This document shows, one piece after another, positions 7,567 through 59,651 of a stretch of 64,000 bases of DNA (position 1 is its first letter; each line of letters opens with the position of its first letter). The notes beneath the pieces are model-generated. The model had not been told where the DNA came from, did no database searches, and was given only the letters and a program-made list of their open reading frames with translations. A program made the translations under genes and the position numbers. The stretch is from Sulfurospirillum diekertiae (GTDB lineage: Bacteria; Campylobacterota; Campylobacteria; Campylobacterales; Sulfurospirillaceae), in NCBI RefSeq assembly GCF_002162315.1, contig NZ_CP021416.1:1252207-1316206 (forward strand), read 5' to 3'.

Positions 7567-7660
7567 GATAACCTCTTTCTTGTAGCACTTTCTACACTTA
7601 ATTATTCGAAGCTATTTTCAGTGTAACACACTATGGTAAACCTTTGACTCCTTTTATTTA

Positions 7661-7672
7661 TTTACATGTAAA
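7661..7672. repeat. TTTACATGTAAA palindrome, copy 5
   Basis: Perfect copy just downstream of the DUF711 stop, before the Gcr gene start. Flanked by A and G. Confidence 0.95.
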
Positions 7673-7675
7673 GAT

Positions 7676-8908
7676 TTATGGAACTCTTAAAACCATGCTA
7701 TTGCACAAATCATCGCTTTCAAAGTGTGTCATATCGCCTGCTTTGAGGTTAGGGACGGGGAAGAGTCTGACGGTGAGCGGTTTATTGAGTCTGTAAGCAA
7801 GTGTGCCAGTATCAGCGCAAATGGCAGCGATTTTTTCCACTGAGGTATCACCTTCAATAGGGACAGTATCGAGTCCTATGCCACAAACGGCAGAGTATTG
7901 AAGCAAGGCTCTGATGTCAAATTCATTGCGTGTGGTAGCATCGGCTAAGCCTTGATCTTCTACAACGGCTAACATCAATCCTGAAAAGCCTATGAGTTCA
8001 CATCCTTTTTGCGCCTTAAAGACTTTGGTTAACAGTGCAGAAGCTTCGAGCGTTCCTGCTGCACCAAAGAAAGGCACGCCCAAAAGTTTATAGACATCCA
8101 CCATCGAAGCGCAGTTTTTTGACGGTGCAGCAGAGGTATCGATGCCCGCAAAGTTAGTTTTGTATGGATGTGCATAGCCATTAGCAATGTCAAGAATTTC
8201 AGTGATATGGTATTGTAATGCATCACGCATAATGGCATAAGACTTTTGCATTTTAAGATTATGGTTTTTTTCTTCTTTGAGACTTTTGAGTGCTTCTACA
8301 AGGAGGTCAGGCGTTTCAAGTCCGAGAGCAAAGCAGTTTTCATCATGGCTGTTATGGTAAGAAGCTGGAAAGTAGGGAATGTGCGGTTTGCAGTTATAGT
8401 TAATCGTAAAATTAAAGTTGCCTTCGCCTCGTGGTGTAATGCGACCGATTTCCTCTACCGCTTTGGCACAACACAGTGTTAAGTCTCGATCAACGACGCC
8501 GAGTTCATCGACACTAACATTCACACAAGCGTTACAAATATCGCCAAAGGCTTTGATCATCTCAGGCAAAAGAGCGATCTCCTCTTCTGTTTTTGCTTCA
8601 CCGATAGCAAAGCGAATACGAATTTTTGGCATAGAGGGGCTTTTAAGCACGGTAGAGAGTGCTTGCATGTCTTTAAGAACAGCATGATATGACGAGGTAT
8701 GAAGATACTCTCCAAAGGGATTTGTCACAATGCGAATGGATTGAACATGATAACCATGTGCTTTAAATTCATTTGCCAAATCGCCACCAAAGCTTGCCGC
8801 TTTAAAAATGGCTTCTTCCCAAGTGCTTTTCTCTTTGCCTAATGTCACAAAGGAGGTAATGGTGCGAATTTTACATAAATCTTTGTTTTTGGGGCTCTCT
8901 TTAACCAT
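7676..8908 (-). CDS. DUF711 (UPF0210-like) family protein
   Basis: A 410-residue protein of the DUF711 family. Marks seen: the early R-T-I-T-S-F-V block, the glycine-rich middle, and the late G-I-G-L-D-T-V-P-I-E-G-D-T segment. It has a glycyl-radical/PFL-like fold in solved relatives, but no reaction is established. No signal peptide or membrane segment. It stands as a single gene with dodecamer copies on both sides. Confidence 0.85.
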   Translation of the reverse strand: MVKESPKNKDLCKIRTITSFVTLGKEKSTWEEAIFKAASFGGDLANEFKAHGYHVQSIRIVTNPFGEYLHTSSYHAVLKDMQALSTVLKSPSMPKIRIRFAIGEAKTEEEIALLPEMIKAFGDICNACVNVSVDELGVVDRDLTLCCAKAVEEIGRITPRGEGNFNFTINYNCKPHIPYFPASYHNSHDENCFALGLETPDLLVEALKSLKEEKNHNLKMQKSYAIMRDALQYHITEILDIANGYAHPYKTNFAGIDTSAAPSKNCASMVDVYKLLGVPFFGAAGTLEASALLTKVFKAQKGCELIGFSGLMLAVVEDQGLADATTRNEFDIRALLQYSAVCGIGLDTVPIEGDTSVEKIAAICADTGTLAYRLNKPLTVRLFPVPNLKAGDMTHFESDDLCNSMVLRVP

Positions 8909-8950
8909 GAAATTTCCTTGAGTGCTTTACCAAATCATAGCTAAATCGTT

Positions 8951-8962
8951 TTTACATGTAAA
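8951..8962. repeat. TTTACATGTAAA palindrome, copy 6
   Basis: Perfect copy in the divergent gap between the DUF711 and beta-lactamase genes. Flanked by T and G. Confidence 0.95.
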
Positions 8963-9042
8963 GGTATAAAGTTGCATTAAATGCTTATTTTAAAGCCAAT
9001 AAAAGTGTATAATTTAAAAGAGTTCATTGAAAAAGGATGTCT

Positions 9043-9813
9043 ATGTTTTTGAAAGTAATACTCATGCTGGGATTATTCTGTTCGTTATATGCGGAAGATG
9101 CAATGATGGCCAAACTTTTTGATGATGAAAACATAACAGGTACAATGCTCATTGAGTCATTAGATGGTACGAAACGGTATGTGTACAACGATGAGCGTGC
9201 CAACATGCCGCTCCTTCCCGCTTCGACTTTTAAAATTCCCAATACGCTCATAGCCCTCCAAGAAGGTGTGGTTACTGCAGACTCGATTATTGTTTGGGAC
9301 AAAGTGGAACGAAGTGTTCGTGCATGGAATCAAGACCAAAGTTTAAAGTCGGCATTTAAGAGTTCGTGTGTCTGGTGTTATCAGTCTTTTGCCCGCAAGA
9401 TTGGGTTGGAAAAGTACAATGAGTATCTCAAAAAACTTCACTATGGCAATGAAACAACAGGGCATAATGTAGAGCGTTTTTGGCTCGATGGAGATCTTCG
9501 CATTAGCGCTTATGAGCAGATAGCTTTTTTGAAAAAGCTTTATAACAATGATTTGCCGTTTCAGCAAGACCATATGGATTTACTCAAAAGTATCATGATC
9601 GACGAGCAAGGTGAAAACTACATAATTCGAGCTAAAACAGGTTGGGCCGTACCAAAAGATGCAGAACATCACGGCTGGTATGTGGGATATGTTGAGAGTT
9701 CCAAAGGCGTTTACTTCTTTGCAACCAATCTTATCATTGAATCAGCCGATGAGCTTCCTCTTCGTAAACTCATGACCATACAAGCCTTGAAAAATAAGGG
9801 AATTATGGAGTAA
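9043..9813 (+). CDS. Class D (OXA-type) beta-lactamase
   Basis: A secreted serine beta-lactamase of about 256 residues. From the ATG at 9043 the active-site S-T-F-K is at residues 61-64, S-C-V at 108-110, Y-G-N at 134-136 and K-T-G-W at 198-201, all in the order expected for class D. An N-terminal hydrophobic signal ends near A-E at residue 18. I prefer the ATG at 9043 over 9037, because AAAAGGA overlaps the earlier ATG and is well spaced for the later one. A likely -10 TATAAT lies at 9008-9013. Chromosomal OXA enzymes are common in this bacterial group. Confidence 0.9.
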   Translation: MFLKVILMLGLFCSLYAEDAMMAKLFDDENITGTMLIESLDGTKRYVYNDERANMPLLPASTFKIPNTLIALQEGVVTADSIIVWDKVERSVRAWNQDQSLKSAFKSSCVWCYQSFARKIGLEKYNEYLKKLHYGNETTGHNVERFWLDGDLRISAYEQIAFLKKLYNNDLPFQQDHMDLLKSIMIDEQGENYIIRAKTGWAVPKDAEHHGWYVGYVESSKGVYFFATNLIIESADELPLRKLMTIQALKNKGIME

Positions 9814-9819
9814 ACTATC

Positions 9820-9831
9820 TTTACATGTAAA
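9820..9831. repeat. TTTACATGTAAA palindrome, copy 7
   Basis: Perfect copy between the convergent beta-lactamase and EAL-fragment stops. Flanked by C and G. Confidence 0.95.
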
Positions 9832-9837
9832 GATAAT

Positions 9838-11246
9838 TTACGAGTTCATTTCTGAATGCTTTTGCTCAAAAAATTCTTTGAGTGCATCATATCTTAAAGG
9901 TTTGGCATATAAATAGCCCTGAAATCTATCACATCCCAAACTTTTTAATACCGCTTCTTGTTCTTTGGTCTCAACCCCTTCGGCTAAAATATATAAGTCA
10001 AAATTTTTTCCGATAGTGATAATGTTTTGAATCATTTTTTCAGCTGTCATATCATTCAAAATCGTATCAACAAAGCTTTTATCAATTTTTAGCTCGTCAA
10101 TAGGCAGCTTACGTAAGATACTCAAAGAGGAATACCCTGTACCAAAATCGTCCATTGAAATATGCAGTCCCATGCCACGTATCTTTTGTAAAAGTGGTAA
10201 GACGTAGTCAATATCTTCAATAAACAAACTCTCTGTAATCTCAAGACATAATGAAATATGCGCCAACTTTGAACGGTTTATCTCTTTAATCAGTTTCTCT
10301 AAAAAATGAACTTCCATAAACTGTTTGATCGAGATATTGACAGAAGTTTGAAAAGACGCACCGAGTTCGACTTGTAACGCTTTCATCTCTTTAAGGGTTG
10401 CACTCATGAGAGTATCCATAGTTCATAACGAGGGTCATATTTGAGGGCGATTTGTATACGTTTTCCATCGATTGAGGACGTTTCAACCGCATAAATTTCA
10501 CCTTTTTGTTTCATCTCTTCAAGCGAAATGGTGTATTTATGACTAATATCGTTAAACATAGTCTGTAAAAAACTATTGGGAAGAGGTGCTTCGTAAAGAT
10601 TCTTTGCTATCTCATGGTTGGAGGATTGAAATTGGACAAAGTGATCACGATCTCGAATGAGGGTAACGGTATTGTAATCGCCCAATGAAAGATTTTCGGT
10701 ATAGATCTTAAAAGCGCCTTCTATTCCAATCCCTGCTGTCATCACGCCAATCGCTTGACCTGAAGAATCAAAAGCTGTTTTGCGAATCGGGATTCCCCAA
10801 CGCCCTCTCCCCGCAATAAAATAGGTTCTACCCAACACCATTTTCTTTTGGGTTAACGTATAATCAAAGGAATCTCGTGTAACGGCTTCAGCCCTAAGAT
10901 TAGGGCGTTTTGATTTATCAAAGTTAGAACTTGCATAAAGATACGTGCCTTCACTATCGGTAAATCCAAAGGAGACAACCGAAGGATTGAGTGCTCGTAA
11001 ATCGTCTAAAATACTTGGGTCTTTTTCTTTAACAATTTGATTTCCTAAAAGATTGAGCATCATCTCTTGGGTTAGGAAAAGAGAGTCGGTTGCATTGGAA
11101 ACAAGTTTAACGAGATTGATTTGGTCGATCTCATATTTTTGATGGATACTGTTCAGTTGAATGTACGAAACAATCCCCAAAAAGAGAAGGGCACTTGCTA
11201 AAAGAATATAAAAAATAGTCCAGATATTTTTTTGAAGAGCAGCCAA
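9838..11246 (-). pseudogene. Sensor-EAL protein with internal deletion
   Basis: Two overlapping reading frames look like the ends of one signalling protein. The upstream part (10404-11246) has one membrane segment and a periplasmic Cache-like sensor and stops right after W-I-L-S. The downstream part (9838-10419) begins inside an EAL domain: it keeps N-I-S-x-K-Q-F, D-D-F-G-T-G-Y-S-S, A-E-G-V-E-T and the Q-G-Y-L-Y-A-K-P-L end, but lacks the E-A-L motif and about the first 75 residues, plus any second membrane segment or GGDEF domain. No homopolymer is at the joint, so this is a deletion. The EAL remnant should not cleave c-di-GMP. Confidence 0.75.
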
Positions 11247-11324
11247 AAGAAACTCCTTTTGTCACAATGACTAATCATAACATAATTTCTGAGCCGTGTA
11301 ATAAAGGATGAAATAAAGTGTTAA

Positions 11325-11355
11325 AAATAAAGAAGGCAAAGTGCCTCCTTTATTT
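11325..11355 (-). terminator. Rho-independent terminator of the motor operon
   Basis: A 14 bp stem (11325-11338 with 11342-11355) with one mismatch and loop of 3, A/U-rich at both sides; on the minus strand it ends in a T-run. It overlaps the stop of the MotB-like gene. Confidence 0.8.
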
Positions 11356-12428
11356 ATTCTTTACGTTTTAAAAAAGTTTCGATCTCTTCGATGGCTTTTT
11401 TGTTCGAGAGGTTAAATTTGATTTCAATGCGCCTTGAAGCCTCTTTGTCTTCAACCCCATTTTTAAAGATACGATCACTGTAAGCTCGTCCATTGGCGCT
11501 GAGGTATTTTTGAAGAAGTGCTGTGCGCTTTTCATCGAGAGAATAGATAAACGCCATAACCGAATAGGCTCTTTTTTGAGAAAGATCAAGGTTGTGCATG
11601 TATGTCCCATCGGAGTCTGTATGCCCTTCGATGACGATATGGTCGATATTTTCACGTATCGTAGCGTCATTTAACAGTACATCAAGGTAGGGTTGGAGCG
11701 TCTCCGTCAGCTGCTTTTTGGCTTCAGGTTTAAGCTCATACGAACCGACATCAAAGAGTACAGAAGCGGGCAGACGAATCGCACCGCTGTTGGGGTCGAT
11801 ATTGATCTTTTTGCCCAGTTTTTCTTTTAGTTCTTGTATGACTTTGATGCGAATACCCGTAAGATTTTTAATACGGGATTTTGTTAAATTGAGATCTTCG
11901 ACTAACTGTTGATGTGCAGCAGTGCTTTCCAGTAATTTGGCACTCAACAAAGCAAGTTCTCCATCTTTGAGTTTAAGAGTTTGGGTCGTTGTCCCAAGCT
12001 CCATTTGGCTTGCAACAAGTTCACCTTTCACTTCATCACGAGCAAGCTCTGTGTCAAGCAGGAGTTTTTTGAGGCTTTCAATTTCTCTGTCGCTCAGTTG
12101 TAGTTTTGCAGTGCTTACATTGAGGTCATTCTCTTTTTGAGCAAGCAATTCTTGCGCAATTTGCAACGAGGCACTTGTGACATTCATGTCAGAACGTAAC
12201 CTTAAAAAATTCTTGTTTTTTTTGCAAGAGCTCTTCTTGACTAAGATGTAAAACTCTTTTTTGCTCTTCAAGATCATTTTTGATCCCTTTAAGGTCTGTC
12301 TGTACATAAATGTATTTGACGACAATCGCGCCAATCAGCAAAATAAAAACAAACAACAGTCCTGCCATGAGGTCAGCGTATGAAACCCAAAAGTTTTGGT
12401 CTGAGCTTTGAGATCGGTTGTAACGCAT
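11354..12428 (-). pseudogene. MotB/OmpA-like motor protein (frameshifted)
   Basis: The N-terminal part (from ATG 12428) has S-Y-A-D-L-M-A-G-L-L-F-V-F, the MotB/ZorB-type membrane helix with its proton-binding aspartate at D19. The frame breaks after about 73 residues. Removing one base from the T6 or A8 run near 12209-12225 joins it to a long coiled coil and a C-terminal OmpA peptidoglycan-binding domain (H-T-D-S-D-G-T and D-L-S-Q-K-R-A motifs). The joined protein would be about 357 residues. It pairs with the MotA/TolQ-like gene upstream, whose last base it follows directly. The break may be a sequence error or slippage site. Confidence 0.8.
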
Positions 12429-36780: not shown

Positions 36781-37805
<1,025 letters not shown>

Positions 37806-37821
37806 TAACCGAAGAAAACTC

Positions 37822-37889
37822 TGCCAACATCGTTGGCAAGCTTTAGTGCCCCAGTGGCAAACGTAGTCAAAAGAGCTTTGCCCTTTTGA
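37822..37889 (+). other. Hairpin cluster downstream of nifH
   Basis: TGCCAAC-ATC-GTTGGCA (37822-37838) and TCAAAAG...CTTTTGA (37867-37889), with a small TGCC/GGCA stem between. Such structures could raise nifH mRNA over the rest of the operon, matching the need for excess Fe protein. Confidence 0.7.
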
Positions 37890-37920
37890 TGTTATAAAAA
37901 AATAAAAAGAGGAGCATATT

Positions 37921-38280
37921 ATGTTTATTTGCGGATACCACTTCCCAGCATCTATGGGAAATAAAATTAGTCATGAGCAAGTCGTAGAGAGAGTTACAGC
38001 AGAAGTTGGCGATCTTTCAGATGTCAGTTACGCAGTCCTTACCAGTGAAAACCGTGATGGTATCAAACAAGAAGACCTAAGAGTTGAAAAAGGTTCATTC
38101 CTTTTCACAGCATTGGCTGATTATTATAAAAAATCAGACATTGAAGGCGAATACAAAATGATTTTTTATACCAACAAGTACCAAATGAGTGAAGTTTCAA
38201 AAGCAGTCGATGGTGGTAAAACAGCAGACGTTTGTAAAAAACTTGACGATATGCTTCTCTACAGGGTCAAAGTCGCGTAA
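37921..38280 (+). CDS. Unknown 119-residue protein between nifH and nifD
   Basis: Not a family I can name. Soluble; no cysteine ligands of note; it lacks the PII (NifI) T-loop or motif seen in archaeal nifH-nifD intergenes. It has D-V-S-Y-A-V-L-T-S and K-M-I-F-Y-T-N-K-Y strands and a helical end. A clear AGAGGAG precedes the ATG, and nifD follows after 30 bp, so it should be made with nitrogenase. A regulatory or protective small partner is possible. Confidence 0.75.
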   Translation: MFICGYHFPASMGNKISHEQVVERVTAEVGDLSDVSYAVLTSENRDGIKQEDLRVEKGSFLFTALADYYKKSDIEGEYKMIFYTNKYQMSEVSKAVDGGKTADVCKKLDDMLLYRVKVA

Positions 38281-38310
38281 GCGTACTTTTTAAATAGAAA
38301 GGAAAATAGC

Positions 38311-39765
38311 ATGACAACAGAAACATTGCTAAGCCAACAAGAAGCCGCAATTGCGGAAGTGCTTGCTGCTTACCCTGAAAAGGCGAAAAAAAGTAGAGAA
38401 AAACATCTTGGCGTTGATATGCCAGAGGGTGTTAAAGGTGCTTGTGATTCAACCAAGAGTAACAAACAAACCGTTCCAGGTGTTATGAGTCAACGTGGTT
38501 GTGCTTATGCTGGAAGTAAGGGTGTTGTTTGGGGTCCAGTGAAAGATATGATTCATATCTCTCATGGACCGGTTGGTTGTGGTCAATATAGCCGCGCAGG
38601 TAGAAGAAACTATTACATCGGAACAACAGGTGTTGATACCTATGTAACAATGAACTTCACAACCGACTATAATGAAAAAGACATCGTTTTTGGTGGCGAT
38701 AAAAAACTCAAAGCTGCTCTTGCAGAGATTGATGCGCTTTTCCCACTCAATAACGGTATTTCCATCCAAAGTGAGTGCCCAATCGGTTTGATTGGTGATG
38801 ATATTCAAGCGGTAGCCAAAGGCTACAAAAAAGAGTCTGGCAAGCCTACGGTTGCAGTTTCATGTGAAGGTTTCCGTGGTGTTTCACAAAGTTTGGGTCA
38901 CCATATTGCGAACGATATGATTCGTGATGAGGTTTTACCAGATAATTCGTATAAAAAAGATTTTGAATCAACTCCGTATGATGTTGCGATCATTGGCGAC
39001 TATAACATCGGTGGGGATGCGTGGAGTTCAAGAATTTTACTTGAAGAGATGGGTCTTCGTGTTATCGCTCAATGGAGTGGTGATGCTACCTATAAAGAGT
39101 TAACTATTGCTCCAAAAGCGAAAATCAACCTTCTACACTGCTACAGAAGTATGAACTACGTTGTTCGTCACATGGAGCAAGAATTTGGTGTGCCTTGGAT
39201 GGAATATAACTTCTTTGGTCCAAGTAAAACAACAGAGAGCTTACGCAAAATTGCAGCATTCTTTGATGAGACAATTCAAGCTAAAACTGAAGCGGTTATC
39301 GCTAAATATACTGAGATGACTGATAAAGTCATTGCAAAGTATCGCCCGAAATTAGAAGGCAAGACCGTCATGTTGTATGTCGGTGGATTACGTCCTCGCC
39401 ACGTTATCGGTGCTTACGAAGATTTGGGAATGAAAATTATCGGTACAGGTTATGAGTTCGGACATGGTGATGACTATAAACGTACCAAAGATGAGCTTAG
39501 TGGCTCAACCTTGATCTATGACGATACGAACGAGTACGAATTAGAGCAATTTGTCAAAAGACTTAAACCTGATCTTGTAGCCAGCGGTGTAAAAGAGAAG
39601 TACGTTTTCCAAAAAATGGGTTTACCATTTAGACAAATGCACTCTTGGGATTATAGTGGTCCGTATCATGGATACGATGCCTTTGCAATTTTTGCAAAAG
39701 ACATGGATTTGGCGTTGAACTCCCCAGTATGGGCTCACACCAAAGCACCATGGGAATCTAACTAA
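38311..39765 (+). CDS. nifD: Nitrogenase MoFe protein alpha chain NifD
   Basis: A 484-residue alpha chain. P-cluster cysteines are C64, C90 and C156; FeMo-co ligands are C277 (N-L-L-H-C-Y-R) and H444 (Q-M-H-S-W-D-Y). The histidine near the cofactor is in S-L-G-H-H-I-A-N (197/198). All key residues of the Mo enzyme are present; nothing suggests a V or Fe-only form. It partners NifK as an a2b2 complex. Confidence 0.97.
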
Positions 39766-39775
39766 GGAGAGCACA

Positions 39776-41326
39776 ATGCAAGACGTAGAAAACATAGTAA
39801 ATGGGCAGAAGCTCTTTTTAAAACCAGAGTATCAAGATGTTTTTAAAAATAAAAAGCAATTTGAAAGCAGTGCGGGTTCAACTAACCCTGAAAAAGTAAT
39901 CGAAGTTGCTAAGTGGACAACGACATGGGAATACCGTGAAAAAAACTTAGCACGTGAGCACATCACGATTAACCCAGCCAAAGCGTGTCAACCTTTGGGC
40001 GCTGTTATGGCTGCCCTTGGGTTTGAAAACACTATGCCGTATGTTCATGGAAGTCACGGTTGTGTGGCTTACTTTAGAAGCTACTTTACACGTCACTTTA
40101 AAGAGCCAACACCCTGTGTTTCAGACTCTATGAGTGAAAGTGCAGCGGTTTTCGGTGGTTTGGCAAATATGAAAGAGGGTTTACGTAACTGTAAAGCACT
40201 TTACAAACCAGATATGATCGCCGTTTCTACGACATGTATGGCAGAAGTTATTGGTGATGACCTCAATGCGTTTGTGATCGGTGCTCGCAAAGATGCTGAG
40301 GGTGAACTTGATGGTACTCCGATTCCAGCGGCACACACTCCATCATTTGCAGGTAGCCACGTTACAGGTTATGACAATATGATGAACGCCATTTTACAAG
40401 AGCTCAATCCTGTTGAAGGTCGTGAGATCGTAAAAGATAGCGAGTGCATCAATATCATTCCTGGTTTTGAACCATACCTTGGAAGCTTGAAAGAAATTAA
40501 GAAAATGGCTGCTATGTTTAGCGACAAAATCGTTATGATCGGTGACCATGAAGATCAATGGAATACACCAGCAGGCGAGTATAAACTCTATGCAGGTGGC
40601 ACACCTTTAGCCGTTGCAAAAACAGCAAGCAGTGCAAAAGCGACTATTTCACTTCAAAAGTACTCTACAATTGCTACTGCGAAGATGATAAAAAATGATT
40701 GGAAACAAACATATGCTACATGTAATCCAATCGGTTTAGGTGGAACAGATGAGTTTGTAATGAAACTCAGTGAACTTACAGGCAAACCCGTTCCTGCTGA
40801 GCTTACAAAACTTCGCGGTCAACTTGTCGATGCGATGCAAGACAGTTATCCGTATATGCACGGCAAAAAATTTGCTATCTGGGGAGATCCTGACTTCTTG
40901 TTAGGTGTTGTCTCTTTCTTGGTTGAGATGGGTGCTATCCCTGTACACGTTCTTTGTCATAATGCGCCTCGTAAAAACTGGGAAAAAGAGATGCAAGCGA
41001 TCCTTGACAAATGTACATTCAAAGAAGAATGCCACATTTGGATGGGAAAAGATCTATGGCATTTAAGAAGCCTTATTTTCACTGAGCCAGTAGATTTCAT
41101 GATCGGTAACGTTTATGGTAAAGAGTTGTATCGTGATACAAAAGTACCTCTTATCCGTATCGGTTTCCCAATCTTCGATAGACACCACTTACATAGATAC
41201 TCTATCAGTGGTTACGAAGGTGCGCTTAATCTTTTAACTTGGATTACCAACTCCGTCCTAGACGCGTTGGATGAAGAGACAAAAGATATCGCAAAAACAG
41301 ATTTCTTCTTCGACTGCGTAAGATAG
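39776..41326 (+). CDS. nifK: Nitrogenase MoFe protein beta chain NifK
   Basis: A 516-residue beta chain with P-cluster cysteines C71 (K-A-C-Q-P-L-G), C96 (S-H-G-C-V-A-Y-F) and C154 (T-T-C-M-A-E). The start follows the nifD stop by 10 bp with AAGGAGAG. No nifE or nifN follows; the transcript ends at a UUCG-loop terminator. Those scaffold genes must be elsewhere, perhaps before base 1 with nifX. Confidence 0.97.
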   Translation: MQDVENIVNGQKLFLKPEYQDVFKNKKQFESSAGSTNPEKVIEVAKWTTTWEYREKNLAREHITINPAKACQPLGAVMAALGFENTMPYVHGSHGCVAYFRSYFTRHFKEPTPCVSDSMSESAAVFGGLANMKEGLRNCKALYKPDMIAVSTTCMAEVIGDDLNAFVIGARKDAEGELDGTPIPAAHTPSFAGSHVTGYDNMMNAILQELNPVEGREIVKDSECINIIPGFEPYLGSLKEIKKMAAMFSDKIVMIGDHEDQWNTPAGEYKLYAGGTPLAVAKTASSAKATISLQKYSTIATAKMIKNDWKQTYATCNPIGLGGTDEFVMKLSELTGKPVPAELTKLRGQLVDAMQDSYPYMHGKKFAIWGDPDFLLGVVSFLVEMGAIPVHVLCHNAPRKNWEKEMQAILDKCTFKEECHIWMGKDLWHLRSLIFTEPVDFMIGNVYGKELYRDTKVPLIRIGFPIFDRHHLHRYSISGYEGALNLLTWITNSVLDALDEETKDIAKTDFFFDCVR

Positions 41327-53228: not shown

Positions 53229-54068
53229 TTAGCGGTCGTATTTTTTAGCGTACTCAGCATCGTTATAAATAGCTTCACCGTAAAGCTCTTTACCAAAGCT
53301 ACGGATCACTTTTTGGCCATCCCCTTTGGTTACAAATTCAATAAACTTAGCACTCATATTTTTTTGAGGTGTCTCTAAGCCATTTTGTTTGAGCGCATTA
53401 TAGGTATTGACTAAAAAAATATCACCTCTAAAAAGAATCTTCATGTTTTTGAGCTCTTTTTGAGCGGCGACCCATGTGCTGCTATCGGTCATAAAGTAAG
53501 CCCCTGTGGTATCGGCTTTTTTAAGCGTTGCGAGCATAAAATCTTTATTGATGGTATACCAACTTCCTTCAGGTGAAATATTGGCTTTTTTCCAGATCTC
53601 AAGCTCTTTTTTATGTGTTCCTGAATTATCGGCACGGGTATAAAAAAGGGCTTTTTTGGCAGCAATGCGTGAGTATGCTTCGACAACACTGGAAGAGTCT
53701 TTAATCAATGCGGGGTCTTTTTTAGGACCTGTAATGTAAAATTCATTCGACCCAATGAGCGAACGATCACTCGCCCAACCCTCTTTAAGCGCCTCTTTCT
53801 CACCTTTAGGTGCATGCACCATAATCAAATCAACCTCTTTGTTTTTAAGCAATGAGAGTGATTCACCAGAACCTGCTTTGATCCAACACAGTGTTATATC
53901 GTTTGATTTTGCAAACTCTTCTGCTAGGACTTTAACAAGACCCAACTCTCCGGGGCTTCCGGTTGCAAGTTTGATTTCTAATGCACCTTTGCCATAACGC
54001 TCTGTACAGTTTGCCGCAAACATGACACTACATAGCGCGAGTGTGGTAATGAGAACTTTTGAAAGCAT
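53229..54068 (-). CDS. TupA-like tungstate/molybdate-type binding protein
   Basis: A 279-residue periplasmic binding protein with signal peptide. It matches the TupA layout: L-A-T-G-S-P-G-E-L-G-L near residue 35, A-G-S-G-E-S-L near 65, D-L-I-M-V-H-A near 80, and R-A-D-N-S-G-T-H near 146. TupA proteins bind tungstate. Here the usual A-T-T-T-S is A-T-G-S-P, so ligand choice is uncertain. No permease or ATPase gene is next to it. It stands downstream of the hydrogenase operon on the same strand. Confidence 0.7.
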   Translation of the reverse strand: MLSKVLITTLALCSVMFAANCTERYGKGALEIKLATGSPGELGLVKVLAEEFAKSNDITLCWIKAGSGESLSLLKNKEVDLIMVHAPKGEKEALKEGWASDRSLIGSNEFYITGPKKDPALIKDSSSVVEAYSRIAAKKALFYTRADNSGTHKKELEIWKKANISPEGSWYTINKDFMLATLKKADTTGAYFMTDSSTWVAAQKELKNMKILFRGDIFLVNTYNALKQNGLETPQKNMSAKFIEFVTKGDGQKVIRSFGKELYGEAIYNDAEYAKKYDR

Positions 54069-54214: not shown

Positions 54215-54226
54215 TTTACATGTAAA
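54215..54226. repeat. TTTACATGTAAA palindrome, copy 23
   Basis: Perfect copy overlapping the stop of the GltD-like gene (read L-Y-M-stop); it is the core of AGAAGCTTTTACATGTAAAG plus CTTCT, a larger hairpin with one bulge. Flanked by T and G. Confidence 0.95.
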
Positions 54227-55643
54227 GCTTCTGATCTTCAACAAGTCCTAGTTTTCGAGCAATCGCTATAGCCGCTTCTCTTCCATCAAGAGCAGCATTG
54301 ACAACCAAGTTTGCACCTCTGACCACATCGCCACCGGCAAAGATAAACGGATGACTTGTCTCTTTATGTTCATCCACAATCAGCGTATTGGATTTACCGA
54401 TGGCAAGGTTTAATTCATCGTAAAAATCAAAATGTTTGGCTTGAAAGCCAAGGGCTAAGATGATACTGTCGGCGGGTAGTGTTTGAAAGCTTTGTGGTTT
54501 GGTTTGAAGACGGTTATTTTCATCGGTATAAGTTTCAAGAATTTCAAGCCCAACAACACGATGCTCAGCATCTACAATCGCTTTTTTGGGTAGAGCATTG
54601 AAAATAAACTGAACCCCTTCTTCTTTGGCGTTAATCACTTCTGCGCGGCTTCCTGGCATACTTGCTTCATCTCTACGGTATACACAGGTCACACTTTTAG
54701 CTTTATGGCGAATGGCGGTGCGAAGAGCGTCCATTGCGGAGTCTCCACCACCGATGACAACAACATGTTTATTGCGTAAAATGGATTTTTGAAGCGCATG
54801 GTCGAAAAGATTTTTCTGTGTTTGGGTGAGGAGTGTCATGACTTGATACACGCCATTGGCATCTTCATTTTCCATGTCGGCACTGCGTCCTTTGGGCACA
54901 CCCAAACCTAAAAAGACGGCATCAAACTTTTCTTGAAGTTCATGGAGACTGACATCTTTACCCACTTCGGTATTTAAATGGACTTTCATACCTGCTTCTT
55001 TCATCCACTCAAATCGTCTTAAGATGACACTTTTGGGTAGTTTGAAGTTAGGAATACCGTACATTAAAAGTCCACCTACACGGTTTTCTCGTTCAAACAT
55101 TTCCACTTCAATGTTGGCACGAAGTAAGAATGTCGCACAGCTCAAGCTGGCAGGACCACTGCCTACAACCGCAACTTTGAACTTTCGTCCCTCTTTTTGA
55201 CCATAATCAGGAATGGCGCCTTGTTCATACGCTGTTTCATTTAAAAAGACTTCCACATTGCCGATGGATACGGCATGGTACTCTGTTTTTTCCAGCGTAC
55301 ATGAACTTTCACACAGTCCTTTTTTGGGACATACGCGACCCAAAATTTCAGGGAAAGGAGATCTGGCATTGGAAAGTTCAAACGCACCCAAATAGTCTTT
55401 TTCATAGGTCTTTTTAAGCCATCTTGGAATGTTGTTGTTCAGTGGACAACCCGTACGACAAAACTTGAACTCACTCTCAAGTCCACGTAAAAGATCAATA
55501 GGACATTGCAAACAACGACTGGCTTGCGCTTTGGCTTCACTCTCTTCAAAGTTATGATATATAGGGTAATAATCCTCAATGCGCTCAACGGCTGGGCGTT
55601 TTTTTTTTGGATAGGCTTTTGCGATTGTTTTATATTCTCTCAT
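54216..55643 (-). CDS. GltD-like FAD/NAD(P) oxidoreductase
   Basis: A 475-residue protein like the small subunit of glutamate synthase. N-terminal Fe-S region: C-L-Q-C-P, C-R-T-G-C-P-L-N-N and C-P-x-x-x-L-C-E-S-S-C. Then FAD motif V-V-G-S-G-P-A-S-L-S-C near residue 160 and NAD(P) motif V-V-I-G-G-G-D-S-A-M-D near 296. No large GltB subunit is near. Its place as last gene of the hydrogenase operon suggests transfer between ferredoxin and NAD(P)H, as in NfnB or AegA-type proteins. The stop codon is supplied by a dodecamer. Confidence 0.85.
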   Translation of the reverse strand: MREYKTIAKAYPKKKRPAVERIEDYYPIYHNFEESEAKAQASRCLQCPIDLLRGLESEFKFCRTGCPLNNNIPRWLKKTYEKDYLGAFELSNARSPFPEILGRVCPKKGLCESSCTLEKTEYHAVSIGNVEVFLNETAYEQGAIPDYGQKEGRKFKVAVVGSGPASLSCATFLLRANIEVEMFERENRVGGLLMYGIPNFKLPKSVILRRFEWMKEAGMKVHLNTEVGKDVSLHELQEKFDAVFLGLGVPKGRSADMENEDANGVYQVMTLLTQTQKNLFDHALQKSILRNKHVVVIGGGDSAMDALRTAIRHKAKSVTCVYRRDEASMPGSRAEVINAKEEGVQFIFNALPKKAIVDAEHRVVGLEILETYTDENNRLQTKPQSFQTLPADSIILALGFQAKHFDFYDELNLAIGKSNTLIVDEHKETSHPFIFAGGDVVRGANLVVNAALDGREAAIAIARKLGLVEDQKLYM

Positions 55644-55644
55644 G

Positions 55645-55992
55645 CTATTCCTCTATGATCTCTATACTTTTTACATGTAACTCTTGTCCACCTATCATGG
55701 CGACATCTTCACTATAACATTTCGGGCAGATAAAATGGTTCTTTTCTACAATACTTTTTTCATGACACGAAGCGCATAAAAGCACCACTTCGCACAGCTC
55801 TATACTGAGAGTTGCATCATGGCAGATGGTCTCTTCTTTAAAGGTATCAAAACACTGTTCCAAAAAATGAATCTCAATGCCACTGAGTCTCCCCACACTT
55901 ATTGTAAGGCTTTTGATGGCTTTGGCATGATGCTTCTTCGCCTCTTTCTCGCACAGGTCAATGAGTGAAGCGACGATGGAGTATTCATGCAT
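55645..55992 (-). CDS. hypA: Hydrogenase nickel insertion protein HypA
   Basis: A 115-residue HypA: M-H-E-Y-S at the start with nickel-binding H2, and two C-x2-C zinc pairs (L-C-A-S-C-H and I-C-P-K-C-Y near residues 72-93). It helps insert nickel into the large subunit encoded upstream. It starts 6 bp after the ferredoxin gene. The rest of the hyp set is not in this window, so this may be an operon-specific copy. Confidence 0.88.
   Translation of the reverse strand: MHEYSIVASLIDLCEKEAKKHHAKAIKSLTISVGRLSGIEIHFLEQCFDTFKEETICHDATLSIELCEVVLLCASCHEKSIVEKNHFICPKCYSEDVAMIGGQELHVKSIEIIEE
55670..55681. repeat. TTTACATGTAAC, one-mismatch palindrome (coding)
   Basis: Eleven of twelve bases match; at the end of hypA, read as L-H-V-K. 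Confidence 0.85.
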
Positions 55993-55998
55993 AAAAAC

Positions 55999-56472
55999 TT
56001 AGCCTTTTTGCGCCATCAATTGTGTGTATTCGTCATAGTCCACTACTGAAATGGCACTGGTTGTACAGACACGAATGCACGAAGGTCCCTCTGGGCGTTT
56101 GAAACAAAGGTTGCATTTGAGCGCAATACGACGATCATCTTTTTGGATCATCGTGATAGCGCCATACGGGCAAACCAGTGAGCAACACCCACACCCGACA
56201 CACGCCTCTTCATGAATCTTGATAAAATCATCCATTTTTTCAATGACACCATGAGGGCATACCGCCAAACATGAAGGCGATTCGCAGTGCATACATTGAA
56301 GTGGTGATGTTTTACCGTCCACTTTGATAACACGGTTACGCGAAATAAGCGGCAATTTTGTCTCATAAGCTTCTTCAAACGTAATGCCTTGGAAACTGGC
56401 CGCACAGGCTAACTCACAACTTAAACATCCGACACATTTGGTACTGTCTGCAAATATAAAATGGTTTCGCAT
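55999..56472 (-). CDS. CooF/HycB-type 4Fe-4S ferredoxin
   Basis: About 157 residues from ATG 56472 (M-R-N-H-F-I-F), 1 bp after the large-subunit stop. Four cluster motifs: C-V-G-C-L-S-C-E-L-A-C, C-M-H-C-x-x-x-x-C, C-V-G-C-G-C-C-S-L-V-C-P and C-N-L-C-F-K-R-P-x-G-P-S-C. The last is the HycB/CooF/HydN mark. It should carry electrons between a soluble donor (CO or formate dehydrogenase, or the GltD-like protein) and the hydrogenase. Confidence 0.87.
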   Translation of the reverse strand: MRNHFIFADSTKCVGCLSCELACAASFQGITFEEAYETKLPLISRNRVIKVDGKTSPLQCMHCESPSCLAVCPHGVIEKMDDFIKIHEEACVGCGCCSLVCPYGAITMIQKDDRRIALKCNLCFKRPEGPSCIRVCTTSAISVVDYDEYTQLMAQKG

Positions 56473-56473
56473 C

Positions 56474-57562
56474 TTAACGCTCTGTACAGGAGATACAAGG
56501 ATCGATGCTATTGAAAATGAGTGCAACATCATCAATGTTATTGTTTGGCATCATCACTTTAAGCGCCTCCCAGTTCATGTAGGTCGGCACACGCCACTTC
56601 ATACGCTCAGGCTTTTGTGTGCCATTGGTTTTAAGATAATAGACCAGCTCTCCTCGTGGTGCTTCGGTGCGAGAGACGGCTTCCCCTTCTGGAATGAGTG
56701 TGCGTGTTGGAAGCACAATATCTCCCGTTGGCATAGAATCAAGTGCCTGATGGAGCAGTTTCATGGATTCTAAAATTTCATAGAGCCTTACTTTGGCACG
56801 AGAGAGCACATCGCCATCTTGTTGAAGTACAACATCAAAATGAAGGTTGGCATACGCGGCATAAGGAGCACGTTTGCGTACATCGTTGTTGACACCACTT
56901 GCTCGTGCTACAGGGCCTACAACACCCAGTCTGAGTGCGTCTTCATAACTGAGCACGCCAACGCCTCCGATACGTGCGATCAGCGTTGGGTCGGTTTCAA
57001 ACAGGGCGATAAACGCTTCAATTTTACTTCTGTTCTTATCTAATGTCGCTTTGATAGAGGCGATGAGTTTTTCATCAAGATCAAATTTCACACCACCGAT
57101 GGTATTTGCACTTAAATCCATACGGTTACCCCAAATGGCTTCTTTCAGGTCTTGAAAATCTTCACGTGTCTCTAAAAACTGTGTCATCAACGTTTTGTTA
57201 TGAATGAGATGGCTAAGCATACCAAGGTTAAAGAGATGACTGGCAATACGCTTGATCTCATCGGCTACGACACGTAGGTAAAGGGCGCGTTCTGGTAAGC
57301 TCAGTCCAGCGATTTTTTCCACCGCCATACAGTAGGTGAAGGGATGGTTGTTGGAGCAGAGTGCACAGACTTTTTCGGTAATAATCAGGTTTTGTAAGAA
57401 GTTTCGTTGAAGTACGATAGATTCAATGCCACGATGAACAAACCCATTAATCATATCAACACTGTGAATCGTTTTTCCATCACTGTTAGGTTCGATTTTA
57501 AAGTAAACGGGCTCTTCAAGTGCCACATCAAAAGGTCCTAAAATAACGTTTGTTTTATCCAC
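56474..57562 (-). CDS. Group 4 NiFe hydrogenase large subunit (CooH/EchE type)
   Basis: A 362-residue large subunit with both nickel motifs: E-K-V-C-A-L-C-S at residues 64-70 (C66, C69) and D-P-C-I-S-C-T-E-R at the very end (C356, C359). The protein stops right at that arginine, so there is no C-terminal peptide to be cleaved, as reported for CooH and EchE. It overlaps the 30 kDa-type subunit by 8 bp. Catalyses H+/H2 exchange, usually proton reduction with ferredoxin. Confidence 0.92.
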   Translation of the reverse strand: MDKTNVILGPFDVALEEPVYFKIEPNSDGKTIHSVDMINGFVHRGIESIVLQRNFLQNLIITEKVCALCSNNHPFTYCMAVEKIAGLSLPERALYLRVVADEIKRIASHLFNLGMLSHLIHNKTLMTQFLETREDFQDLKEAIWGNRMDLSANTIGGVKFDLDEKLIASIKATLDKNRSKIEAFIALFETDPTLIARIGGVGVLSYEDALRLGVVGPVARASGVNNDVRKRAPYAAYANLHFDVVLQQDGDVLSRAKVRLYEILESMKLLHQALDSMPTGDIVLPTRTLIPEGEAVSRTEAPRGELVYYLKTNGTQKPERMKWRVPTYMNWEALKVMMPNNNIDDVALIFNSIDPCISCTER

Positions 57563-58049
57563 GGTTGACCCCTTCTTCTGCTTTAACTTTACTCCAAAGT
57601 TCTTGGCTTACTTTGCCACTCATGGCTGAAGAGAGCGAGTAATACTCTTCAAGTACACTCTCTTTAATGGATTCATCCAAAAAGAGACGTTTGGGATTGG
57701 GGTGATTGAGAATGGCAATGCCATAGATTTCACTCAGTTCTCGCTCCGTCCAGTCAGCGCTTTTAAACAGAGGAGTGATGGATGGAACACTTTTATCGGT
57801 GATATGGAGTTTCAGATTGAGCATGACGCCATCAAGATCAAAATGATAGACCAATTCATGTTCATCGCCTTTTTCATAAGCAGTGATCATGCAGACCCGC
57901 GCATTCATCGTTTTGAGGATTTCAGCAAGCTGTAAAAGTAGATTTTTATCGGCAATATCACACCAGAGGCTATCACCGTTAGGTTCAAAATGACAACGAA
58001 GTGCCAATGATTTGGTGACCTCATTTAGCTTTACATGTAAAGATTTCAT
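57555..58049 (-). CDS. NuoC/CooU-type hydrogenase subunit
   Basis: A 164-residue protein of the 30 kDa NADH dehydrogenase/EchD/CooU family. The key block is S-A-D-W-T-E-R-E-L-S-E-I-Y-G-I near residues 92-106, then H-P-N-P-K-R-L-F-L. It begins M-K-S-L-H-V-K, where L-H-V-K comes from a dodecamer at 58030. It follows the ferredoxin-type subunit with no gap. Structural subunit of the hydrogenase peripheral arm. Confidence 0.87.
   Translation of the reverse strand: MKSLHVKLNEVTKSLALRCHFEPNGDSLWCDIADKNLLLQLAEILKTMNARVCMITAYEKGDEHELVYHFDLDGVMLNLKLHITDKSVPSITPLFKSADWTERELSEIYGIAILNHPNPKRLFLDESIKESVLEEYYSLSSAMSGKVSQELWSKVKAEEGVNRG
58030..58041. repeat. TTTACATGTAAA palindrome, copy 24 (coding)
   Basis: Perfect copy at codons 4-7 of the NuoC/CooU-type gene, read as L-H-V-K. 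Flanked by C and G. Confidence 0.95.
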
Positions 58050-58475
58050 TTAAAGGGCTCGCTTTGCAAAAGTATGGTCACGTCTGCATTTAGGGCAGAG
58101 GTTAAAGAGCGATACAAGCTCTTCACTCACGTTTTTAAACCCTTTTTGCAGCATGGTTTGTGGTACGTTTATCATGGGTTCATGACATTTTTGGCATTCA
58201 CCATATTCAACCATATTGGCAGTAATTGCGGTGTATTTTTCACTTTGCGGTGTTGCTTCCGCTAAGGTGTTACTTAACGCAATAGCGCCTGTGGGACAAA
58301 AATAGGTACAGTTACCGCATACGGTACAGGTGTTGTGCCAGATAATGAAGTCATAGCTTTTGTGCGGTTCAACACACGAGATATTAATCGCTCCTGCGGG
58401 GCAGACAAAAGCACAGGTTTGGCAGAGCACACATTGCTCTTTGTTAAAGGTGATTTTTCCTTTGTAGACATTCAT
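58050..58475 (-). CDS. CooX/EchF-type ferredoxin subunit
   Basis: About 141 residues from the ATG at 58475, which overlaps the stop of the small subunit (ATGA). Two 4Fe-4S motifs: C-V-L-C-Q-T-C-A-F-V-C-P and C-T-V-C-G-N-C-T-Y-F-C-P. A second part has two C-x2-C pairs (C-Q-K-C and C-P-K-C), perhaps a zinc or rubredoxin-like site, which is unusual for EchF. It links the soluble ferredoxin to the small subunit. Confidence 0.87.
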   Translation of the reverse strand: MNVYKGKITFNKEQCVLCQTCAFVCPAGAINISCVEPHKSYDFIIWHNTCTVCGNCTYFCPTGAIALSNTLAEATPQSEKYTAITANMVEYGECQKCHEPMINVPQTMLQKGFKNVSEELVSLFNLCPKCRRDHTFAKRAL

Positions 58476-58885
58476 GCGTTCACCTTCTCTTTCCATAGTG
58501 CACAAGCTTGAATGAGTCCATCCACAATGCTTTGTGGAGATGGAGGACAGCCTGCGATGTTGACATCAACATTTACAAAACGATCTAATGGTCCTTCAAT
58601 AGAGTAACTATCGCGAAATACACCACCGGTAATGGGACAAATTCCCATGGCAACCACAACTTTTTCATCAGGTAAACGTTTAAGTGTAGCTTCTAAAAAA
58701 GGTTTGGAGCGTGTGGTGATAGAACCCGTGACGATGACAATATTTGCCTCTTCAGGGTTGTTTGTGTAAGTACAATGAAGGGTATCAAAACCAAATTTTG
58801 GGACAAGAATGCTCGCCAAAAGCTCGACATCACAGCCATTACAGGAACCTGCGTTGATACGATAAACGTTGATATTATCTACCAT
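58472..58885 (-). CDS. Group 4 hydrogenase small subunit (CooL/EchC type)
   Basis: A 137-residue NuoB-like small subunit with the proximal cluster cysteines C15, C18 (G-S-C-N-G-C-D), C83 (G-I-C-P-I-T-G-G) and C113 (A-G-C-P-P-S-P). First gene of the operon: the 200 bp upstream is AT-rich and holds no CooM/CooK or EchA/EchB membrane subunit. So the order L-X-U-H of the R. rubrum coo operon is kept, but M and K are absent here. Confidence 0.9.
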   Translation of the reverse strand: MVDNINVYRINAGSCNGCDVELLASILVPKFGFDTLHCTYTNNPEEANIVIVTGSITTRSKPFLEATLKRLPDEKVVVAMGICPITGGVFRDSYSIEGPLDRFVNVDVNIAGCPPSPQSIVDGLIQACALWKEKVNA

Positions 58886-59067
58886 AAAGGGTCTCTTTAA
58901 ATTGCAATTTTTTTAAAAATAAATTAATTAAATCTGTAAAGATTGAATTAAAGTTTGTATTGTAACACAATAATGAATGATTTTAGAAGATTTAATCATG
59001 TATTACATCATAAAAAAAAGAGTTCTATTGCAAAGAATTTTGGGATGAAAAAGGTAAAATACTCTAT

Positions 59068-59079
59068 TTTACATGTAAA
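59068..59079. repeat. TTTACATGTAAA palindrome, copy 25
   Basis: Perfect copy 8 bp before the HD gene ATG; its tail AAAGGA doubles as ribosome site. Flanked by T and G. Confidence 0.95.
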
Positions 59080-59087
59080 GGATCAAA

Positions 59088-59651
59088 ATGCCAAAAAGAG
59101 AAGAGGCGTTTGCTTTGCTTAAAGCCTATAACGGCGATGCGCTTGTGACCCATGGGCTTGCCGTTGAGGGAACGATGCGTTACTTTGCAGCCAAAGCGGG
59201 TGAAGATGAAGAAACGTGGGGTATTGTCGGGCTTTTGCACGATGTGGATTATGAAAAATTCCCTGAGCTTCACTGTCATAAAGGTGCGGAGATACTCAAA
59301 GAAAAAGGGTATTCAGAAATCATTATTCGCGCGATGATGTCTCATGGATGGGGTATTTGCACCGACGTTGAACCACACAGTAAAATGGAAAAAACACTTT
59401 ATGCGGTGGATGAACTGACCGGTCTTATTACCGCATGTGCACTGGTTCGACCTAGTAAATCAGTTATGGACTTGGAGCTTTCCTCGGTGAAGAAAAAGTT
59501 TAAGACAGCTTCATTTGCGGCAGGGGCGAGTAGGGAAGTTATTCAAAAAGGTGCGGATATGCTTGGTGTGAGTCTAGATGAACTCATCGTTGATGTGATC
59601 GCTGCTATGAGAGCAATCGCACCAACACTTGGATTAGAGCTCAAAAACTAA
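59088..59651 (+). CDS. HD-domain phosphohydrolase-like protein
   Basis: A 187-residue HD protein. Metal motif: H in T-H-G-L-A-V-E near residue 22, H-D in L-L-H-D-V-D-Y near 50-51, H in S-H-G-W-G near 84, and D in A-V-D-E-L-T near 107. Fits the HDIG group of predicted phosphohydrolases acting on nucleotides or cyclic nucleotides. Single gene; converges with the NYN gene. Substrate unknown. Confidence 0.85.
   Translation: MPKREEAFALLKAYNGDALVTHGLAVEGTMRYFAAKAGEDEETWGIVGLLHDVDYEKFPELHCHKGAEILKEKGYSEIIIRAMMSHGWGICTDVEPHSKMEKTLYAVDELTGLITACALVRPSKSVMDLELSSVKKKFKTASFAAGASREVIQKGADMLGVSLDELIVDVIAAMRAIAPTLGLELKN

Follow-up and report, generated by a model that had tools for sequence, protein, structure and literature searches.

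A probable cytoplasmic Coo-type [NiFe] hydrogenase without a membrane arm, linked to a GltD-type flavoprotein, in Sulfurospirillum diekertiae

An operon of seven minus-strand genes was found at positions 54216-58885 of a 64,000-nucleotide stretch of the Sulfurospirillum diekertiae genome (contig NZ_CP021416.1; the whole stretch is called the window below), and it probably encodes a cytoplasmic, ion-uncoupled Coo-type (group 4) [NiFe] H2:NADP(H) oxidoreductase that has no pumping membrane arm. Hydrogenases of [NiFe] group 4 are closely related to complex I and are regarded as membrane-bound enzymes, most of which pump ions. The seven genes encode CooL, CooX, CooU, CooH, a HydN/CooF-type polyferredoxin (hereafter HydN), HypA and GltD, and neighbours overlap or lie no more than 6 bp apart (Table 1); gene order, coordinates and tight packing are as a preliminary description of the sequence had given them. 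That description had also noted the absence of CooM, CooK, EchA and EchB from the cluster, which we confirmed, and had suggested that the complex may be soluble and move electrons between H2, ferredoxin and NAD(P)H via the GltD-like protein; the comparisons below favor a soluble complex with GltD as its likely NADP(H) port (there is no spare arm in the genome, and the membrane-lying helix of CooX is lost). For these comparisons, 45 large CooH loci were drawn from named genomes and from genome sets covering the family and the phylum.

Enzyme class and proposed reaction

CooH shares 50-57% identity with Bacillota CooH versus 34-37% with Hyf/Ech-type large subunits, and the phylogenetic tree agrees with a Coo placement; by these sequence measures its nearest relative is the Carboxydothermus-type CooH (HydDB [NiFe] group 4c). 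Its best matches, both full-length, are the group 4 subunits of Pyrococcus MBH (6cfw_L, E 2e-66) and of E. coli formate hydrogenlyase (HycE, 7z0s_E, E 1e-61). The soluble NADP-coupled [NiFe] group 3b shares the proposed overall reaction (H2 with NADP(H)), but it has a large subunit of another group and another flavin subunit, and the enzyme described here is not a member. Both nickel ligand motifs of CooH (C-A-L-C and D-P-C-I-S-C) are intact, and the protein ends in DPCISCTER with no cleavable C-terminal extension. In most [NiFe] hydrogenases, the C-terminal tail of the large subunit is removed by a protease.

Each of the seven genes was recognised with Pfam/NCBIfam. The CooL, CooX, CooU and CooF-type subunits of group 4c are all present in the operon; CooM and CooK are not encoded in the cluster, and the genome has no unassigned genes for them; no match above cut-off to TIGR01702 (CO dehydrogenase, CODH) was found in the genome either. 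In alignments, the cluster cysteines are retained in CooX, HydN and CooL (in the latter, all four ligands of one [4Fe-4S] cluster). HydN is mostly 38-40% identical to Bacillota CooF with conserved cluster cysteines, and HypA is a normal member of coo clusters that adjoins cooH in the Carboxydothermus-type clusters too.

In the proposed reaction, electrons from H2 would pass from the Ni-Fe site of CooH through CooL, CooX and HydN to the iron-sulphur clusters of GltD, and from there via FAD to NADP(H); the GltD-type flavoprotein would reduce NADP+ or oxidise NADPH, with the polyferredoxin delivering the electrons. With no pump the reaction would be uncoupled, and its direction would be set by the H2 pressure and the NADPH/NADP+ ratio. 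The potentials are -414 mV for H2/H+ at 1 bar and near -370 mV for cellular NADPH/NADP+. An estimate from such textbook values suggests that above roughly the kPa range (a few kPa) H2 oxidation would supply biosynthetic NADPH, and that below it H2 would be released as a valve; the pump-bearing version in Nautiliaceae could shift this balance by the membrane potential. Three elements of this scheme are inferred: that HydN and GltD physically assemble with CooLXUH, that the partner is NADP(H), and the direction.

The membrane arm and the CooX helix

The genome is complete (one contig, 2,876,536 bp, 100% complete), and its CooH is 96% identical to the CooH recorded for S. diekertiae, in keeping with a place in Sulfurospirillum. 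The genome-wide search for membrane subunits suggested by the preliminary description revealed no unassigned NuoH/HycD/CooK-type (PF00146) or antiporter-type (PF00361) gene, and all matches to these families form four other clusters (about 157-168 kb, 438-451 kb, 1,030-1,037 kb and 2,116-2,123 kb), each with a large subunit of its own (two complex-I-type, two Hyf-type). No arm for coupled ion translocation is encoded for this hydrogenase. In the other soluble-form genomes checked (complete or nearly complete), a large subunit other than CooH is encoded no more than about 13 kb from every PF00146 gene; in two Nautiliaceae controls, one PF00146 gene adjoins CooH. As a side observation, the second complex-I-type set of S. 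diekertiae (436-453 kb; L098:2453-18649) is split: its membrane-arm and peripheral genes lie on opposite strands (plus and minus, respectively) and are separated by two other genes.

The CooX/HycF/NuoI subunit of complex I and of group 4 hydrogenases has an N-terminal helix that runs along the membrane arm. The S. diekertiae CooX lacks the corresponding stretch, which precedes the first cluster motif and comprises about 42 residues (as in MSGFLKIAIRNLLKGPVTDPYPF). All 16 clusters with CooM-CooK have it, and all 28 without them lack it (44/44 in agreement; many of the 28 are closely related, and the independent events number about three). That helix and arm were lost jointly speaks for genuinely soluble complexes that borrow no other arm. 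The preliminary description had pointed to an extra pair of C-x2-C motifs in CooX; the C-terminal pair exists but is not unusual, because it occurs in every CooX aligned (the membrane-bound Carboxydothermus type included) and because CooX matches nearly the entire HycF/HyfH family models, and we do not regard it as a special trait of this protein.

The order CooL-X-U-H-HydN-HypA-GltD is constant across Sulfurospirillum. In six Nautiliaceae, CooM-CooK precede a CooLXUH-HydN-HypA-GltD tail. In the Nautiliaceae genome G047 the flanking genes are the same, with a proS-like gene upstream and a trio resembling succinate dehydrogenase/fumarate reductase downstream, and CooM-CooK are missing, the gap falling exactly between the proS-like gene and cooL. 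A further group of Campylobacterota from several families of the order also lacks CooM-CooK and has CooL fused to CooX; the apparent absence of CooX from the clade L088/L090-L095 was rejected, since CooX is fused to CooL there. A concatenated CooLXUH-HydN protein tree requires at least three changes (in Sulfurospirillum, in G047 plus the CooLX-fusion group, and in the Bacillota contig L074), and a tree with the soluble Campylobacterota forms in one clade was rejected (approximately unbiased test, p-AU 0.004). The tree therefore indicates that the arm was lost independently at least three times, at least twice in Campylobacterota and a third time in a CODH-linked Bacillota cluster; long branches call for caution with this count, and one loss plus one regain is a formal alternative. 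The Bacillota cluster (L074, a contig of the metagenome-assembled genome UBA5324, 6385-11869) combines CODH-linked CooLXUH with the absence of both CooM/CooK and the CooX helix, and is a possible candidate for a soluble CO:H+ enzyme.

Positions that are invariant in the membrane forms but differ in three or more of the four soluble groups concentrate in CooL (14/79) and CooH (10/160), with few in CooU (2/41) and none in HydN (0/33); Fisher's test for CooL against CooU plus HydN gives p 0.002. Several of them sit in the CooL stretch matching SPRQAD of NuoB and in a CooH loop near residue 122, which we take to be loops near the quinone/membrane-arm junction in complex I. These parallel changes of CooL and CooH in independent soluble lineages bear, together with the lost CooX helix, on a catalytic module that borrows a Hyf or Nuo arm and is hence membrane-bound. 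Homologous arms are at hand in the genome (two hyf and two complex-I-type clusters), but both kinds of change speak against such a loan, as does the soluble-form genome G257, whose single NuoH-type gene lies about 8 kb from its own nuoD, and we hold it to be highly improbable.

Some further variants were noticed among the relatives. In Sulfurospirillum sp. SCADC (L053:7626-8513), cooL and cooX are joined in frame, which parallels the fixed fusion of the other soluble clade. In four loci (L092:7613-7897, L088:7365-7664, L090:139-426 and L091:7517-7798), a Cys-containing protein of 93-99 aa is encoded immediately upstream of the fused CooL-CooX gene, and the two copies that were scanned had no Pfam match. 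An uncultured Campylobacterales carries, behind a complete CODH-linked coo cluster, a fused CooU-CooH-like protein of 474 aa followed by HypA (L063:12636-14060, plus strand); it has lost the N-terminal C-x2-C nickel ligands, only C-E-S-C remaining at the end, and is a degenerate large subunit that is probably non-catalytic.

GltD and the electron partners

GltD is part of the operon in 33 of 33 Campylobacterota clusters without CODH, 6 of which have the membrane arm, and in 0 of the 12 others; of these 12, seven have CODH in the locus, three an upstream aldehyde:ferredoxin oxidoreductase-type gene, and two lie on truncated contigs. The 600-aa gene of the aldehyde:ferredoxin oxidoreductase type was confirmed by Pfam in L068 and L069 and by resemblance in the third, and a HydN-like gene was seen in full beside it in two of the three loci; this oxidoreductase is apparently a third type of partner of Coo hydrogenases. 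Judged by gene content, GltD takes the place of CODH as the partner of the CooF/HydN adaptor in Campylobacterota, and one hydrogenase core would be served by different electron partners (CODH, aldehyde oxidoreductase, GltD) through adaptors of the CooF/HydN type.

The preliminary description had placed the GltD-like flavoprotein in the role of the missing ion pump. This does not hold: the same tail occurs in the six Nautiliaceae clusters that still have CooM and CooK, so GltD joined before the arm was lost and is no pump substitute. Nor is there support for a recent loss of CODH from this locus in Sulfurospirillum: CODH is likewise missing from the Nautiliaceae clusters that share the tail, and in SCADC and one relative it is encoded elsewhere. 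A stray glutamate synthase subunit was also rejected, because the true gltB-gltD pair is located at about 611-617 kb (GltB, 1449 aa, with its own GltD), and no GltB partner exists for the GltD of the operon. In the Nautiliaceae locus L083 (12260-15811), a flavoprotein/iron-sulphur/CCG-domain trio of the succinate dehydrogenase/fumarate reductase type directly follows gltD, which suggests a link of the Nautiliaceae hydrogenase with fumarate reduction.

The GltD of the operon has the features of the GltD/AegA family (Fer4_20 domain, FAD and NADP(H) Rossmann motifs), and the Coo-linked GltD carries the FAD motif, the two Fe-S motifs and, as its second Rossmann motif, the GGGxSA...YRR type known from relatives that use NADPH (GGGDSA...YRR in S. 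diekertiae). All aligned Coo-linked GltDs have an insertion of about 10 residues beside the first Fe-S cysteines; it is lacking in the GltD of the organism's own glutamate synthase, in AegA and in the Azospirillum GltD, and it may be a docking site. The presence of GltD in every such cluster, together with this insertion near the N-terminal cluster, suggests a dedicated protein partner. A contact between HydN and GltD is supported by E. coli AegA, a natural fusion of HydN-like and GltD-like parts in a single chain, and by the interactions of AegA with HydN and HycB in two-hybrid tests (PMC6004506).

The constant linkage and the insertion also weigh against a soluble ferredoxin:H+ oxidoreductase (an H2 valve or ferredoxin reducer), in which GltD would act separately as a ferredoxin/NADPH port and have no more than the operon in common with the hydrogenase. 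Ferredoxin is the usual partner of group 4 enzymes, CooX and HydN expose [4Fe-4S] clusters, and ferredoxin-dependent chemistry of pyruvate:ferredoxin oxidoreductase and the reductive tricarboxylic acid (rTCA) cycle runs in these organisms (PMC6242987, PMC2628731); we regard this alternative as unlikely, though worth keeping in mind. A bifurcating or confurcating hydrogenase, with an NfnL-like GltD coupling H2, NADP(H) and ferredoxin, appears very unlikely. GltD is a homologue of NfnL, the subunit with the bifurcating flavin, a GltD-like domain functions in the Stn transhydrogenase, and Arg201 of the bifurcating Nfn is thought to tune the bifurcating flavin (PMC7483475); its position is occupied by Lys in 19 of 19 aligned Coo-linked GltDs, as in the GltD of Azospirillum glutamate synthase and in AegA, which disfavors bifurcation, and no NfnS-type partner subunit is among the operon genes. 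After loss of the pump another route to low-potential electrons would be useful, and there is a slim chance that the GltD flavin splits H2 electrons to NADP+ and to low-potential ferredoxin for the rTCA cycle, replacing ferredoxin reduction driven by the membrane potential.

Several points tell against the H2:NADP(H) oxidoreductase that we favor. NADP specificity rests on a motif, and GltD-type enzymes can serve other acceptors; CooX or HydN may reduce ferredoxin or flavodoxin directly. The AlphaFold model of GltD (mean predicted local distance difference test score, pLDDT, 70.8, with most of the N-terminal iron-sulphur domain <50) is too weak at the N-terminus to place the insertion. In S. 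multivorans, transcripts of echE were nearly undetectable under all conditions tested (PMC5357620), and only one subunit was quantified in its proteome, compared to 5/6 in S. cavolei (PMC6242987).

Selection, known systems and the locus

Very low expression (PMC5357620) and the absence of CODH from the genome would fit a decaying remnant of a CO-induced hydrogenase after loss of CODH, a possibility raised by Kruse et al. (2017). The ratio of nonsynonymous to synonymous substitution rates (dN/dS) between Sulfurospirillum species is 0.02-0.15 across the seven genes, wherever synonymous change is unsaturated; all operon genes are under purifying selection where it can be measured, which argues against a dead remnant, and all cluster and nickel ligands are retained. 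Moreover, CODH is absent from the locus throughout the GltD-linked clade, in soluble and other members alike, and Sulfurospirillum SCADC and one relative encode their CODH elsewhere (beside hyf genes in the relative). We consider decay most improbable. In a proteome study of Nautilia, an NADPH-binding subunit was co-expressed with the homologous hydrogenase (PMC10092268).

The novelty is smaller than the preliminary description assumed. The Ech-like (CooH-like) hydrogenase of S. multivorans (SMUL_1307-1310), a cluster of the same kind in the same genus whose EchEDFC correspond to the CooH/U/X/L types, has already been described as devoid of membrane subunits (Kruse et al. 2017, PMC5357620), but HydN and GltD are unmentioned there, and loss of CODH and non-function were considered. 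The Nautiliaceae system CooMKLXUHF plus GltD (N. profundicola, PMC2628731; Hyd-3 of Nautilia PV-1, PMC10092268) has the same CooLXUH-HydN-HypA-GltD tail, whereas CooM, CooK and the CooX membrane helix are kept; an NADPH role was proposed for the membrane-bound Nautilia homologue in 2022 (PMC10092268). CooLH without a full operon was reported from Caminibacter mediatlanticus in 2009 (PMC2628731), and CooLUHF from a Sulfurimonas strain in 2021 (PMC7952632). The Carboxydothermus-type CO-induced hydrogenase (HydDB group 4c) is the closest characterised CooH/L/X/U family and shares the CooF adaptor and HypA, but in place of GltD it has a CODH partner and a membrane arm. E. coli AegA/YgfT (AegA being a HydN-GltD fusion) and the [FeFe] group A2 hydrogenases, recognised by a GltD-type neighbour (PMC5037454), resemble the present system in these respects but have no [NiFe] group 4 module.

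In open-access papers (subscription journals and supplements lay outside the search), no report was found of a conserved GltD linkage across soluble and membrane forms, repeated arm loss, co-loss of the CooX helix, or partner exchange, and these four appear to be new here. The GltD-linked enzymes with the pump (Nautiliaceae) and without it, after at least two losses in Campylobacterota, form a natural series, pairwise comparison of which would directly reveal the contribution of the membrane arm and the residues through which the catalytic module is coupled to it. The enzyme would also offer an NADPH source for autotrophs that lack the usual ones.

Table 1. Features of the hydrogenase operon (positions in the window) and coo clusters preceded by an aldehyde:ferredoxin oxidoreductase gene
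Feature	Position	Strand	Evidence
CooL-type small subunit (NuoB/HycG-like)	58472..58885	-	PF01058 E 3e-25; alignment
CooX-type 2x[4Fe-4S] ferredoxin subunit, ATG start 58475	58050..58475	-	Fer4 and HycF-like matches; helix comparison
CooU-type subunit (NuoC-like)	57555..58049	-	PF00329 E 2e-19
CooH-type [NiFe] large subunit	56474..57562	-	PF00346 and PF00374
HydN/CooF-type polyferredoxin, four [4Fe-4S] motifs, putative electron adaptor	55999..56472	-	AegA N-terminal/HydN matches
HypA nickel chaperone	55645..55992	-	PF01155 E 2e-30
GltD-type FAD/[4Fe-4S] flavoprotein	54216..55643	-	PF14691, PF07992; TIGR01318 445 bits; alignments
Upstream intergenic region with conserved TGTGTTACAAT stretch (about 58959-58969)	58886..59087		
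Bacillota coo clusters preceded by aldehyde:ferredoxin oxidoreductase gene	L068:215-2514, L069:444-2246, L072:239-2520		

The polyferredoxin gene most likely starts at the internal ATG (56472) and not at the upstream TTG. As previously described, no gene lies in the roughly 200 bp upstream of the operon, and the first gene beyond its 5' end is divergent (59088-59651, HD-domain protein). The TGTGTTACAAT stretch in this region is conserved in the aligned upstream regions of eight Sulfurospirillum and is a possible candidate for an extended -10 element. TupA (53229-54068) was rejected as a member of the operon, since several close relatives lack it at that position. Rfam and tRNA scans of the window gave no matches, and nifHDK-like genes are located at 36807-41326, about 13 kb from the hydrogenase operon.

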